From Lanius collurio (taxonomy: Eukaryota > Chordata > Aves > Passeriformes > Laniidae): 64,000 bases of DNA. The position numbers and the translations under genes are program-made. Under the pieces are notes generated by a model that worked only from the letters and a program-made list of their open reading frames with translations, made no database searches and had not been told where the DNA came from. This document shows positions 1,473 to 32,015 of the stretch, piece after piece; positions within the stretch are counted from its first letter, which is position 1; each line of letters begins with the position of its first letter. The DNA lies in NCBI GenBank assembly GCA_020086605.1, contig JACBWW010000038.1, positions 6,762,250 through 6,826,249 of the forward strand. Direction: 5' to 3'.

Positions 1473-1770
1473 TGTGGAGATACCTCCCTACTGGGAGGTC
1501 CTGGGGGAGGGGACCCTGGATGAACAGGGTTTGCCCCTGCTCCCTGCTCATGTGTGCCCGGATGCTGTGTCCAGATTGGTTGTTGGCTGGGGTTCTGGGG
1601 CCGAGGGGAAGGGCTCGGGGTCCCGTGACCTGGAAGATCACCAGCAGGCCCCCATGCCATGCGGCTGGGAGAAATAAACATCTCTGAACATCTACCCAAT
1701 ATTGTTCCATATTTCATTTCTACACGTCTCATGGTATAATACTTGTTGAGAGAATTCCCCAGCAACAACA
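1473..1770 (+). mobile_element. Solo LTR, ERVK-like, with perfect 6-bp target duplication
   Basis: The element starts TGTGGAG and ends CAACAACA. It is flanked by the direct repeat GTTCTG at 1467-1472 and 1771-1776, a 6-bp duplication as made by class II (beta/alpha-like) retroviral integrases. An AATAAA signal lies near 1673 in the context 'gagaaataaacatctctgaacatct', the same context as in the LTRs of the provirus at 3338-5651. An inverted CCAAT (gattgg) and a terminal 'ttgttg..ttccc..caacaaca' block are also shared, so it belongs to the same family or a sister subfamily. No internal region is present, which fits LTR-LTR recombination after insertion. Confidence 0.85.
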
Positions 1771-3331: not shown

Positions 3332-3337
3332 AGTGAC

Positions 3338-3580
3338 TGTGGAGGTGGGTCTCTGTCCCTGTCCCCAGGTCACGTGTGCCCCATGCCTGCTCCTGATTGG
3401 GTGGTTTGGGTGCCTGGAGCTGGGGGGGTAGAGAAGGGCCGGGAGGTTGGCTTGGGAACTCCGGCCATGTGGTTGGAGAAATAAAATCATCTCTGAACAT
3501 CTGCAAAAATACGGCTTCATCTGTCCTTCCAACTCCATTGCCTCATATATATTGTTGTCAGGGTTCCCCGCACTGCAACA
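3338..3580 (+). repeat. 5' LTR of the Y-box-carrying ERV
   Basis: A 243-bp LTR with TG...CA ends (TGTGGAGG ... GCAACA). An E-box CACGTG lies at 3371-3376 and an inverted CCAAT box at about 3395-3400. The polyadenylation signal AATAAA is at 3480-3485. No convincing TATA box is seen. It is almost identical to the copy at 5410-5651 (T/G after the G-run, T/C in 'ggctYggg', and one extra T in 'tgtcctTcc'). Confidence 0.92.
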
Positions 3581-3582
3581 AA

Positions 3583-3600
3583 TGGTGGAGAATGCGGGCA
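3583..3600 (+). other. Primer binding site, tRNA-Ala type
   Basis: Directly after the 5' LTR plus two bases comes TGGTGGAGAATGCGGGCA. From memory of vertebrate tRNA-Ala(AGC), the reverse complement of its mature 3' end is TGGTGGAGGATGCGGGCA, which differs at one position. Its position and TGG start are as expected for a retroviral PBS. A comparison against the host tRNA set would settle the primer identity. Confidence 0.7.
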
Positions 3601-3719
3601 AACGATCCCTGGAGAAGATAATTCGTGAGTAACTCTGGATATCTCTTCTTACTTTCGTTTTGATGAACGATGGAGGATTAATGGAAGGACTCATGGCTGT
3701 CCGAACCACAAAGAGACAT

Positions 3720-3985
3720 TTACCTTAAGCTAAAAAAGGTTCTGGAACAGCAATATGTAGACTTTAGCTTAATTCAAACTCAGAAAGAGCTAAGACACTT
3801 TTAGGTATGGCTGTTTAAAAAACTTCTTCTATGTTTCTTGGGATTTGATTCTTACCAAGGACTTTTGGAAGAATGTTTGGACACAGTTAATTTCCGAATC
3901 AAAAAATATGCTGATGCAGGACTATTTCCGTGAATATTACCTGATTTCAGAGACTGTTGAGCAATATTGGCTGTGTCCTGCTGCT
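3720..3985 (+). pseudogene. Decayed gag (matrix-like) remnant
   Basis: Between the leader and the GC-rich captured segment lies AT-rich sequence whose conceptual translations, spread over more than one frame and broken by stops, resemble the N-terminal matrix part of class II avian endogenous gag proteins: a leucine- and lysine-rich helix followed by a block with tryptophans and aromatics. The match is by pattern only. The frame used at 3730-3810 ends at a TAG, and the rest continues in the frame later used by the Y-box ORF. It no longer encodes an intact Gag. It marks the point where cellular sequence replaced gag-pol-env. Confidence 0.45.
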
Positions 3986-5194
3986 GTATCAGCAGCGAAC
4001 ACGTGGCTGAGCAGCGCGCGCGTTGCAGGGGGCTCCTCTACCATCCTGGAGACCGCGCGGCCCTGGCCGAGACCGCCCAGTGAATTGTGGGTGGCGGCAA
4101 GAGAGCTCTCGCGCATGGGAGAGCCAGCAGTGAGGCCAGGCACGGCGGGAGACGGGGTGGCGGCGAGAGAAGAGGTGGCGGGAGTGGAGCCAGGAGCGAC
4201 GCGGCGGCGCGGGCCCAGCGGTGTTCGCCCTGAGGCAGCGGCGAGGGCGGTGGCGGCCGAGGCGCATTCCGGCGATGGCCGCCCCGCACTGTGTGGCCAG
4301 CGACGGTTCAAGCCCGCGCCCCACAGCGAGAAAGGTGGCAGCAATTGTGGCAGTCGCTATGGCGACCGTGGTGGGCCATGCCGAGCAGAGCCAGAGGGGT
4401 GTAGGGGCGAGAAAGGAACCGTGCTAGCCCATGGCTACACAGCCGACAGCAGCAGCAGTTGCAGTGGTGCCGGTGGTACAAAGCCGTGCACACGCGAACG
4501 CCTCACAGAGCGCGGCCGTGCAGCCATGCAAATGCCCGGAAAGCGTGGAGCAGTCATGCGGAGCTCCAGAGGGGGAGCGAGCATGGCACCAAATGCAGCT
4601 CAGCCCCACACACGATCTCGAGGAGCCGAGACCCCGCGACAGGAATGCGCTGGCGGCCCCGGCCCCGGTGGTCCCAGCTGCGGCAGCTCCGACGTGAGAA
4701 AAAGTGAAAGCAAGAAGAAAAGAACTCGAAAAAATGAAAAGATTATCATAGCTAGGGTTTTTGGAACTGTAAAGTGGTATAATGTAAAGAAAAATTACGG
4801 TTTCTTGTTGAAAGACGATACTGGAGAAAATATTTTTGTCCATAAATCTGCTATTGTGAAAAAGAACCCCAAAAGTGATGTTCCAAACTTAGAAGGAGGA
4901 GAAAAAGTAGAATTCAAAATTGTTCAAGGAAGGAAGGGCCCACAGGCTGCATGTGTTACAGGCCCTGGGGGTGCCCCTGTGAAAGGTAGTAGATATGCTG
5001 GACAATATCCCCATAATCCATATCCTTTCCCCTATCACACTTTTCCCTTTTATCCCCTGTCCCTTTGTCCCCCATATATGCCCAGCCCAAACTTCCCTTT
5101 CTGGCTCCCCTCACAAAACCAGTCCTTTTCATTTGCCATTAATCCCTTTGCATTGCCGATGAGGGGGATGAAAAGGAGGGAGGGAAGAAATTAA
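3908..5194 (+). CDS. ERV-borne Y-box (cold-shock domain) protein, fusion ORF
   Basis: An uninterrupted frame of 428 codons from the first in-frame ATG; the frame stays open upstream to a TTG at 3845. Residues 1 to about 27 come from the gag-like remnant. Residues 28 to about 262 are an Arg/Gly/Ala-rich, GC-rich segment of low complexity. Residues about 263-278 are a Lys/Arg linker. Residues about 279-352 are a cold-shock domain: GTVKWYNV, then NYGFLL in the RNP1 position, IFVH in the RNP2 position, and the Y-box-specific closing motif TGPGG followed by PVKGSRYA. VKGSRYA resembles YBX2-type germ-cell Y-box proteins more than YBX1 or YBX3. Residues about 353-428 form a new Pro/Phe/Tyr-rich tail lacking the alternating basic/acidic islands of normal Y-box proteins. 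Y-box proteins bind single-stranded RNA/DNA and package mRNA. Whether this copy is expressed or binds nucleic acid is unknown; the intact frame and young LTRs make it possible. Confidence 0.75.
   Translation: MLMQDYFREYYLISETVEQYWLCPAAVSAANTWLSSARVAGGSSTILETARPWPRPPSELWVAARELSRMGEPAVRPGTAGDGVAAREEVAGVEPGATRRRGPSGVRPEAAARAVAAEAHSGDGRPALCGQRRFKPAPHSEKGGSNCGSRYGDRGGPCRAEPEGCRGEKGTVLAHGYTADSSSSCSGAGGTKPCTRERLTERGRAAMQMPGKRGAVMRSSRGGASMAPNAAQPHTRSRGAETPRQECAGGPGPGGPSCGSSDVRKSESKKKRTRKNEKIIIARVFGTVKWYNVKKNYGFLLKDDTGENIFVHKSAIVKKNPKSDVPNLEGGEKVEFKIVQGRKGPQAACVTGPGGAPVKGSRYAGQYPHNPYPFPYHTFPFYPLSLCPPYMPSPNFPFWLPSQNQSFSFAINPFALPMRGMKRREGRN
4431..4697 (+). pseudogene. Probable ancestral N-terminus of the captured Y-box gene, now out of frame
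   Basis: An 88-codon frame opening with ATG in a different phase from the cold-shock domain. Its start is Ala/Val/Pro-rich (AAAVAVVPVV) and it ends with another Ala/Pro run just before the CSD linker. This is the composition of the N-terminal A/P domain of Y-box proteins, YBX2 in particular. It closes with TGA at 4695-4697, right where the CSD frame should continue. The simplest reading is that a single-base indel after capture separated the original N-terminal domain from the CSD, which is now read through the alternative frame starting at 3908. Confidence 0.45.
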
Positions 5195-5395
5195 CCATCA
5201 TTTTCTAAGATTCCAACAGGTACAAAAGGAAAATCCCTTCCTCAGTTTCCATCTGAAGTATGCTCATGTCCTGTCTCCCTTCTGGTACTCCAAAAGAAAT
5301 CTGTTTGGACATTTGAAGATTCAAGATAGTGGCTTTCTTTCCTTTGAAACTGTTTTGTTGTTTATCCAACTATTTCCCATGTTATTTTATTTAAT

Positions 5396-5408
5396 AAGAA
5401 AGGGTGAA
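5396..5408 (+). other. Polypurine tract before the 3' LTR
   Basis: A short purine run (AAGAAAGGGTGAA) ends one base before the 3' LTR start. It fits the plus-strand primer of reverse transcription. It contains one T, so it is imperfect. Confidence 0.55.
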
Positions 5409-5409
5409 T

Positions 5410-5651
5410 TGTGGAGGTGGGTCTCTGTCCCTGTCCCCAGGTCACGTGTGCCCCATGCCTGCTCCTGATTGGGTGGTTTGGGTGCCTGGAGCTGGGGGGG
5501 GAGAGAAGGGCCGGGAGGTTGGCTCGGGAACTCCGGCCATGTGGTTGGAGAAATAAAATCATCTCTGAACATCTGCAAAAATACGGCTTCATCTGTCCTC
5601 CAACTCCATTGCCTCATATATATTGTTGTCAGGGTTCCCCGCACTGCAACA
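5410..5651 (+). repeat. 3' LTR of the Y-box-carrying ERV
   Basis: A 242-bp copy of the 5' LTR with the same TG/CA ends, E-box, inverted CCAAT and AATAAA. It is followed immediately by the target duplication AGTGAC at 5652-5657, identical to that at 3332-3337. Confidence 0.92.
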
Positions 5652-5657
5652 AGTGAC

Positions 5658-22940: not shown

Positions 22941-23100
22941 GCCGTGGCTCTCTCTTCCCTCGGGGTACACTGCTCCAAGGACAGGCTGCTCCAGCTTGGA
23001 CGCAGGGCCCTCTCTCTCCATGGTTCTCCCACGGGATCACAGCCTCCTCCAGGCACCCACCCGCTCCGGCACGGGCACCTCCCCTCGGGCTGCGGGGGGA

Positions 23101-23580
23101 TCTCTGCATCCCCCGTGGATCCCCATGGGCTGCGGGTGGATCTCTGCATCCCCCGTGGATCCCCACAGGCTGCGGGTGGATCTCTGCATCCCCCGTGGAT
23201 CTCCATGGGCTGCGGGTGGATCTCTGTATCCCCCGTGGATCTCCACGGGCTGCGGGTGGATCTCTGCATCCGCCGTGGATCTCCATGGGCTGCGGGTGGA
23301 TCTCTGCATCCCTCGTGGATCTCCATGGGCTGCGGGTGGATCTCTGCATCCCCCGTGGATCCCCACAGGCTGCGGGTGGATCTCTGCATCCCCCGTGGAT
23401 CTCCATGGGCTGCGGGTGGATCTCTGTATCCCCCGTGGATCTCCACGGGCTGCGGGTGGATCTCTGCATCCGCCGTGGATCTCCATGGGCTGCGGGTGGA
23501 TCTCTGCATCCCTCGTGGATCTCCATGGGCTGTGGGTGGATCTCTGCATCCCCCGTGGATCCCCACGGGCTGCAGGGGCA
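23101..23580. repeat. Minisatellite, 12 units of 40 bp in a 200-bp higher-order pattern
   Basis: Units begin at 23101, 23141 and every 40 bp to 23541. Each has the core TCTCTGCATCCCCCGTGGAT followed by a variable C(T/C)CCA(T/C)GGGC-like block and TGCGGGTGGA. Variant units recur in order with period five: the 'ccccacagg' unit at 23141 and 23341, 'tctctgtatc' at 23221 and 23421, 'cgccgtgg' at 23261 and 23461, and 'cctcgtgg' at 23301 and 23501. This shows a recent duplication of a five-unit block. There are no spacers, so it is not a CRISPR-type array. Confidence 0.95.
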
Positions 23581-30384: not shown

Positions 30385-31359
30385 GTGTTTACTGAGCGCT
30401 CCTGTCCTGATATCACTCCGCTGGCATGGAGGAGGAGGAGGTGGAGGAGGAAAGCATTTGATCATTGTGATGGTGGCAGGAGGAGCAGCAGCCAGCACGA
30501 CAGAGCAAAGCGCTAGGCGGTATCAGCTCGGCGTTTGGCAGAGACTTCAGAGCGCTACTTTGTTTTTTGTTGGGTTGTTTTTTTTTTTTTTTTTCCTCTC
30601 CAGCTCGGTCCGGATTGTTCATGTATTTAACTTCCCCCAGCCCGAGGATTTGCTATTTAGGTTCCTGTTGAAATGCAACTGAACAGCCAAAGTACTTTGC
30701 GAACACGGTGCGGCATAAACACCAAAACTTTTTTCCAGAAGGAAAATACAATAAGCAAGCGGCTTTGCCTGTCTTTTGATGCCGGGGAATGCGAGTGAGT
30801 GTGCCGTGTGTGCCCAGCGTGTGCCTGTGCTTGGATGTGTGTGTGCGAACGTGCGTGTGAACGGGTGTATATATGTGTGCATGTGGAGGGGCGCGTATTT
30901 CTCCTTATCCATGGAGAGAGAAGGCTTTTGGCAAAATCTCCGGAAATCTCATGGAATCTGTTTTGAAATAATGGATTATAAAAAAGAAAGAGGAGGAAAG
31001 GAACTGGTCTGATATCTCCTGGAGTTTGCTAACCCAAATTGCTGCTGCTTAGTTTGTTGTGCTTTTCCTGTGTGTTTGTTCGTTGTGTTGCTGGTGATAA
31101 CCTTTTAGCACCTTCTCTCTTTATTTCCCTCCCCCCTTCCTTCTCTCTTTTTCATGTTTTGGAGCTTCTCGAGAGGGATTGGCTGGGGGAAAAGAGAAAC
31201 ATTTGCTTGGGATCGCTGTTTCCCTGATACATGATGGTGCCCCCTTCCCCCCCCTCCCCCGTTCTCTAAAAAGTATCCCATCAGGACCCCAGAGGAGACT
31301 GTGTGTGTGTGAAGTGTAGGATAAAAAGTTCTTCCAAAATAGTGTGCACGGGAACGAGG

Positions 31360-31803
31360 ATGGGGGATTTTGCAGCCCCCGCTGCCGCCGCGAATGGCAG
31401 CAGTATTTGCATCAACAATAACCTGAACAGCAGCCTCAGCGGGGCCGGCGGGGCCGGTATCGGGGTTAACAGCACTCCCCATGGCCCTCCTGCCGCCGCT
31501 CCCGGTAACAATAACGCTAATAGCGGCGGCATTCCCAAGCACAGCACGGTGGTGGAGCGGCTGAGGCAGCGCATCGAGGGCTGCCGGCGGCACCATGTCA
31601 ACTGCGAGAGCAGGTACCAGCAAGCCCAGGCGGAGCAGCTGGAGCTGGAGCGCAGGGACACGGTGAGCCTCTACCAGCGGACTCTGGAGCAGAGGGCCAA
31701 GAAAACGGGCACCGGCGGCGGCAGCAAGCAGCAGCACCAGAGCAAACAGCAGCAAGATGCTGAGCCCGCCACGGCGGAGCAGAGGAACCACACGCTGATT
31801 ATG
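31360..31803 (+). CDS. MAML3: MAML3 exon 1, mastermind-like 3 N-terminus
   Basis: Encodes 148 residues beginning MGDFAAPAAAANGSSICIN, the recognisable start of vertebrate MAML3. The ATG has a strong context (A at -3, G at +4). Residues 1-58 are a low-complexity Ala/Asn/Gly/Ser leader. Residues about 59-118 are the conserved basic mastermind domain (KHSTVVERLRQRIEGCRRHH onward), the helix that binds the groove between the Notch intracellular domain ankyrin repeats and CSL/RBPJ. A Gln-rich stretch follows, and the exon ends NHTLIM, where mammalian MAML3 also splices. The last codon is complete (phase 0) and GTAAGG follows. The full protein, about 1,100 residues, recruits p300 and CDK8 in the nucleus; those parts are in exons beyond this window. 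The leader between the start and the domain is shorter than I recall in mammals. Confidence 0.97.
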
Positions 31804-31809
31804 GTAAGG
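31804..31809 (+). other. Splice donor of MAML3 exon 1
   Basis: ATG|GTAAGG is a consensus 5' splice site directly after the last conserved codon. The open frame continues to 31887 only as unspliced read-through. Confidence 0.92.
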
Positions 31810-32015
31810 GGATGCGGGCCGCGAGGCGGAGGGGTCGCTGTCCACTCCGCGTCGCTCGACGGGATGAGCTGGAAGTCGGCCCCGTAGCTTGTCAAGGGGA
31901 ACAGGGCTCGACTCAACTTAGGCGGTGGCAGGGTCTCTGGCGAGACGGGCAGGCGGGAGCTGCCGGGACGCTTCGCAACTTCTCACGGGCTAGGATGGAG
32001 GGAGCGGACAAACTT

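Follow-up and report, generated by a model that had tools for sequence, protein, structure and literature searches.

A non-autonomous endogenous retrovirus family of songbirds with a Y-box cold-shock domain behind a matrix-like domain

What use might an endogenous retrovirus (ERV) have for a cellular Y-box gene? The question is raised by a 2.3-kb element with long terminal repeats (LTRs) that occupies positions 3332-5657 of a 64,000-nucleotide stretch of the Lanius collurio genome (assembly GCA_020086605.1, contig JACBWW010000038.1, positions 6,762,250 to 6,826,249 of the forward strand; this whole stretch is called the window hereafter) and that encodes a cold-shock domain (CSD) of the Y-box type. 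An earlier reading of the window from its letters alone (the original prediction) had described a young retrovirus whose genes were replaced by a host Y-box gene. Here, we propose that the element belongs to a non-autonomous ERV family in which a fusion of a matrix-like domain with a host-derived Y-box CSD binds the element's own RNA and carries it into helper particles, a reading to which we assign a probability of roughly 0.58. The window copy is organised as follows:

3332..3337, no strand: 5′ target-site duplication AGTGAC (from the sequence)
3338..3580, plus strand: 5′ LTR of 243 bp, TGTGGAGG...CAACA, with AATAAA at 3480 (LTR alignment)
3583..3600, plus strand: primer-binding site (PBS), 18 of 18 positions matching tRNA-Ala(AGC) (tRNA gene comparison)
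3670..3979, plus strand: region resembling a Gag matrix (MA) domain, disrupted in the window copy, under purifying selection across the family
3980..4738, plus strand: GC-rich (67%) spacer rich in Gly, Ala and Arg, frame open, residues unconstrained
4739..4999, plus strand: Y-box CSD, intronless
5000..5194, plus strand: Pro/Phe/Tyr-rich tail and stop codon; crow and jay proteins have similar tails
5396..5404, plus strand: weak, short polypurine tract (from the sequence)
5410..5651, plus strand: 3′ LTR of 242 bp (LTR alignment)
5652..5657, no strand: 3′ target-site duplication AGTGAC (from the sequence)

The retroviral frame of the element is clear. Both LTRs begin with TGTGGAGG and end with CTGCAACA, and they differ by 2 substitutions over 242 aligned positions and one 1-nt indel; the ~99% identity that had been claimed for the pair, like the perfect AGTGAC duplication at its two outer ends, is thus borne out. 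The PBS TGGTGGAGAATGCGGGCA is the exact complement of the 3′ end of tRNA-Ala(AGC) plus CCA, and tRNA-Ala(AGC) genes with a matching end are present in the same genome. The claimed polypurine tract fared less well, the candidate being just a 9-nt purine run, AAGAAAGGG, five bases ahead of the 3′ LTR. An open frame of 449 aa (3845-5194) contains the CSD toward its end. This domain matches PF00313 with E = 2.9e-19 and its nearest solved structure is vertebrate YB-1, as expected for the Y-box coding region originally proposed. In the Pfam scan of the 449-aa frame the CSD alone scored above the cut-off, and the frame showed no domain of pol, protease or env. Since the element units span 2,282-2,331 bp (25 measured), which is too short for pol, and have no gag-pol of their own, we call the element non-autonomous. 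The window copy is a recent insertion and is itself broken in its matrix part, with a stop at codon 4 followed by a later stop and a frameshift. A diverged solo-LTR-like stretch also lies in the window at 1532-1760 (plus strand; 64% identity to LTR positions 17-232, E = 4e-14).

How widespread is this arrangement? All genome searches were made in the window's own 1.097-Gb assembly. A query composed of LTR and PBS gave 39 matches beyond the two LTRs of the window (40 of 2,570 candidates scored; the 41 rows include these two LTRs and one partial piece), and a query of CSD plus tail, with 1,919 candidates, gave at least 150 scored matches, window included. Among 30 of the latter that were fetched, paired LTRs were complete in 26, again including the window copy, and 21 of these 26 are flanked by exact 6-bp target duplications, the length that is typical of Class II (ERVK, alpha/beta-like) ERVs. 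LTR divergence in the paired copies runs from 0 to 8.9% with a median of 3.5% (10.5% in locus L015, whose 5′ LTR is incomplete), and the PBS matches tRNA-Ala(AGC) fully in 6 of the 26, with 1-2 mismatches in 12 and with 3-7 in 8. Two pairs of loci may each be a single insertion counted twice, L018 and L019 because they share one small contig, L011 and L020 because they lie on two near-equal contigs. The copies are, for the most part, separate insertions, some of them recent. On contigs C18 and C19, both near 20.60 Mb, the same element stands at almost the same position, perhaps because they are haplotypes of a single chromosome. Exact sites of the tRNA pattern numbered six; two of the three fetched are tRNA-Ala(AGC) genes, and the third (C9:19460836-19460926), not a tRNA gene according to ARAGORN and Rfam, is a primer-site-like stretch in which 25 bases of the tRNA-Ala end and the CCA are matched. 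It possibly marks another ERV that uses the same primer.

The adjective "young" holds for the window insertion, given its LTR pair, and not for the lineage. When the CSD of YB-1 was used as query, older copies appeared, with up to 74% identity to YB-1 across 87 uninterrupted residues. Flanking direct repeats that resemble LTRs, 81-92% identical (divergence to ~19%), were found at 16 of 20 loci of this older subfamily. Those loci (L039-L058) have CSDs 67-74% identical to YB-1 and tails like those of a jay protein and of the crow protein P0014. Relatives also exist outside the shrike genome: among the best 120 of 1,448 protein database matches were at least 12 proteins of the New Caledonian crow and at least one of the Florida scrub-jay, along with short contigs, and the matrix-like domain is present in all of the four crow proteins and the jay protein that were aligned. 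That the older copies stand nearer to YB-1 suggests one capture with a long career, and the lineage has likely carried its Y-box gene for a long time.

In addition to the CSD, the family has kept a second domain. The original prediction saw only a scrap of gag in the element; this underestimates a region that is conserved across the family, is under selection and, in subfamily A, is fused in frame to the CSD. Its predicted fold resembles the matrix proteins of Rous sarcoma virus and mouse mammary tumor virus (MMTV), and its best viral structure match is P47 Gag-Crk of avian sarcoma virus CT10. Pfam assigned no matrix family to the matrix end, and a protein search with it returned only P0013 itself and P0020. 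Of two viral contig scans, one gave no match and the other a single 42% match over residues 8-73. It had been considered that the internal segment might match a standard ERV and not YBX genes, which is the case for the matrix part and not for the CSD. At 10 of 30 loci, a single frame of ~505 aa (503-508 aa from the first Met) runs from the matrix through a spacer of 250 residues and the CSD to the Pro/Phe tail, so that a Gag end, here the predicted matrix, is joined in frame to a captured coding region, and the spacer frame remains open in 25 of 30. Furthermore, a matrix query led to 30 loci of which 29 have a full or partial CSD downstream (the other, L082, has a reverse-oriented piece), indicating that matrix and CSD travel together. 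Subfamily B differs in that matrix and CSD seemingly occupy different frames: an open frame of more than 250 aa around the matrix was seen in 4 of 150 matches, and many copies are broken. The crow protein P0014 joins an A-like matrix to a jay-like CSD, a mixed make-up that we take as a sign of part exchange.

Are these domains maintained by selection? The top CSD-plus-tail copies are ranked by protein similarity, a bias that lowers the nonsynonymous rate (dN); two sets chosen independently of the CSD were therefore also used, one selected by LTR (7 copies) being compared with one selected by matrix (24 alignable of 30). For the CSD, the nonsynonymous-to-synonymous ratio (pN/pS) is 0.31 (0.20-0.47) in frame compared with 0.87 and 0.91 in the shifted frames; for the matrix it is 0.36 against 0.66 and 0.84 in subfamily A and 0.34 against 0.73 and 0.99 in subfamily B; for the tail, 0.50 against 0.73 and 1.17. 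The spacer shows no such constraint on its residues, with 0.66-0.78 in frame in three comparisons and 0.68-1.10 shifted, and a neutral simulation with the transition rate of the LTRs yields 0.70. Altogether, the constrained parts give 0.28-0.54 in frame and 0.64-1.22 in shifted frames. Purifying selection thus acts on matrix and CSD and, less strongly, on the tail. When 31 subfamily A copies were compared with the window CSD, changes confined to a single copy were 40 nonsynonymous to 17 synonymous, those shared by 2-3 copies 9 to 5, and those shared by at least four copies 11 to 14 (single-copy versus at least four copies, Fisher p = 0.029). Old, propagated changes therefore look filtered and new ones do not, a pattern that fits a gene needed for the spread of the element and decaying after insertion. 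Among 53 stop-free CSD cores (of 80 copies; 27 were dropped for stops, gaps or lack of a match), a Trp, two Phe and a His are kept in 53, 51, 50 and 50, respectively. In YB-1 these residues contact RNA.

Where did the Y-box domain come from? The host YBX1 locus, on contig C64, is matched by a newt protein in separate pieces (residues 95-197 and 225-302, with one internal stop in the first); because the CSD starts near residue 30, the host CSD must be split and that of the element is unsplit, which agrees with the loss of introns anticipated for a captured messenger. In a CSD tree all element rows stand apart from the YBX rows with moderate support (86/89, below the star level of the tool; midpoint rooting), and the shared tail adds to this support. 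An intermediate protein, P0021, resembles the family in its tail motif and has a CSD that is closer to YBX1, with scores of 427-441 against YBX1, 399-409 against YBX2 and 402 against YBX3; the remaining rows do not separate the parents clearly, so that the comparison with the three paralogues, proposed at the outset as a way to the parent, is informative for P0021 and not for the others. YBX2 is not favoured by these scores, and the idea of a germ-cell-type Y-box protein is not supported, P0021 as the least-derived member scoring best against YBX1, though YBX2 may yet prove to be the parent. Most likely, the gene derives from a spliced host mRNA of YBX1. The CSD of YB-1 is homologous to that of the element, the W/F/F/H contact residues are common to both, and the zebrafish domain is identical to the window copy at 47 of 87 residues. 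The two proteins differ in what follows: the element has no long Arg-rich C-terminal tail of the kind found in YBX1 and ends in 64 residues containing 14 Pro, 8 Phe and 5 Tyr, Arg not being among the six commonest. The notion, advanced originally, of a host-gene-transducing lineage is supported; the lineage is non-autonomous and its Y-box gene has no introns in the CSD.

How might such a protein serve the element? The CSD sits where Gag has its nucleocapsid and could do the RNA-binding work of that domain; the matrix end would direct the protein to sites of Gag assembly, the spacer would give it reach, and a putative helper ERV would supply reverse transcriptase and integrase. A different possibility is that the target of the Y-box protein is the host cell and not packaging: driven by the LTR in germ cells, it would mimic YBX1 or YBX2 and either shift the translation and storage of mRNAs or shield element RNA from silencing, leading to more element expression. 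Y-box proteins are general mRNA-packaging proteins, the CSD and tail are constrained whatever the spacer does, and the CSD of subfamily B is seemingly read apart from the matrix, all of which suits an action on the host; however, the matrix of subfamily A is constrained as well and remains in one open frame with the CSD, as a fusion directed to particles would, and we regard host action as rather unlikely.

The other explanations have less to recommend them. Selection on copies useful to the host, amplifying as a gene family, might account for the persistence of open frames and for the proteins listed in crow and jay annotations, yet the copies stem from separate insertion events, each with a target duplication of its own, many of them are decaying, and constraint is visible in the changes that copies share and not in those of single copies. 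We therefore give adoption of the family by the host little credit, while single adopted copies may exist within it. Still less probable is that the Y-box region is a functionless passenger, descended from an mRNA fragment that was captured a single time and has since been copied passively. The many broken copies, including the one in the window, and the neutral evolution of the spacer would be expected of a passenger; but in-frame pN/pS of 0.28-0.42 for the CSD and 0.34-0.36 for the matrix, against 0.64-1.03 in other frames, largely refutes it, amino-acid changes make up a smaller share of the changes that copies have in common than of those confined to one copy, and the RNA-contact residues are kept. 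Finally, an ordinary processed Y-box pseudogene flanked by LTRs by chance would also have an intronless CSD, like any retrocopy. The order LTR-matrix-spacer-CSD-tail-LTR recurs at many unrelated sites with the duplications outside the LTRs, which rules this out for practical purposes, just as the at least 150 matches rule out a one-off capture.

Most known cases of retroviral host-gene capture concern growth-signal genes and were passing events. The acute transforming avian retroviruses are recent captures of signalling genes that lost other viral genes and need a helper. As in P47 Gag-Crk of CT10, a Gag matrix end is fused here to a captured host coding region; the difference is that the captured part is an RNA-binding domain, kept by selection across a large germline family whose copies range from young to old. 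A further parallel is offered by crocodilian ERVs (Chong et al. 2014, PMC4299795), which are reported to have captured KIT-ligand, placed between pol and env, and nectin3, which replaces env, and whose captured open frames evolve under purifying selection. Host mRNA capture and selection on the open frames are common to both cases, whereas the Y-box element carries an RNA-binding protein, beside which no pol or env was found. In this respect, MMTV has been reported to use host YB-1 in its assembly (PMC4486188, citing Bann et al. 2014), and the Y-box element may carry its own version of this factor. In agreement with the original prediction, none of the open-licence papers listed in the literature searches was on a Y-box-transducing ERV, and the relevant terms do not occur in PMC6523648 and PMC8310711. 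Already known are ERV capture of host genes under purifying selection, as PMC4299795 reports, and Gag-host fusions; new, within the literature searched, are that the cargo is a Y-box gene, that a germline family has it fused behind a matrix-like domain, and the probable link to crows discussed below.

As to the surroundings of the element, an open frame at 31270-31887 of the window (plus strand) resembles the first exon of a mastermind-like gene, which we take to be MAML3, and this places the Y-box element ~26 kb upstream of a coding exon. The window also contains a 40-bp minisatellite at 23087-23573 (92% matches over 12.2 copies), across which either strand has long open frames, and a stretch of N at ~29.75-30.1 kb, read as X in translated frames.

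Could a member of the family be already familiar from another songbird? In crows, corCorLTRK1b is a 2.25-kb ERVK insertion with a 296-bp LTR, 20 kb upstream of NDP. According to Weissensteiner et al. 2020 (PMC7341801), every hooded crow genotyped was homozygous for this insertion, which is tied to reduced expression of NDP. Translated in frame, the published genotyping primer P_L_R_2 reads HPWFPS, a motif that 6 of the 13 Y-box ERV proteins from crow and jay contain; in a control with 20,000 shuffled primers, 14 matched some 6-residue word from the same proteins when all frames were allowed. The same primer matches the tail of one shrike copy (L074) with 1 mismatch of 20, the best of 120 shuffled versions having 5. 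In the window, 553 nt separate the tail motif from the 3′ LTR end, a distance compatible with the 659-bp crow product of PMC7341801, and the size of ~2.3 kb is close to that of the crow insertion. Against the link, the second published primer has 5 mismatches at best, as many as shuffled primers, and the LTR measures 243 bp and not 296 bp. Judged from the primers and not from the crow element itself, the NDP insertion linked to plumage colour likely belongs to the Y-box ERV family.

A broader account, in which an element with its own stripped-down Gag, matrix in front and a captured cold-shock protein replacing the nucleocapsid, has run through songbird evolution, one of its insertions being the NDP allele that has been linked to plumage and premating isolation in hooded crows, is tentative and, in our estimate, somewhat likelier to fail than to hold. 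The family opens the question of whether a non-autonomous element can choose its own RNA for packaging by means of a borrowed host protein. If the crow link is confirmed, a well-studied plumage allele would gain a cargo for which neither "Y-box" nor "cold shock" appears in the main text of PMC7341801, and a plumage locus of hooded crows would contain a Y-box gene, whether intact or broken.

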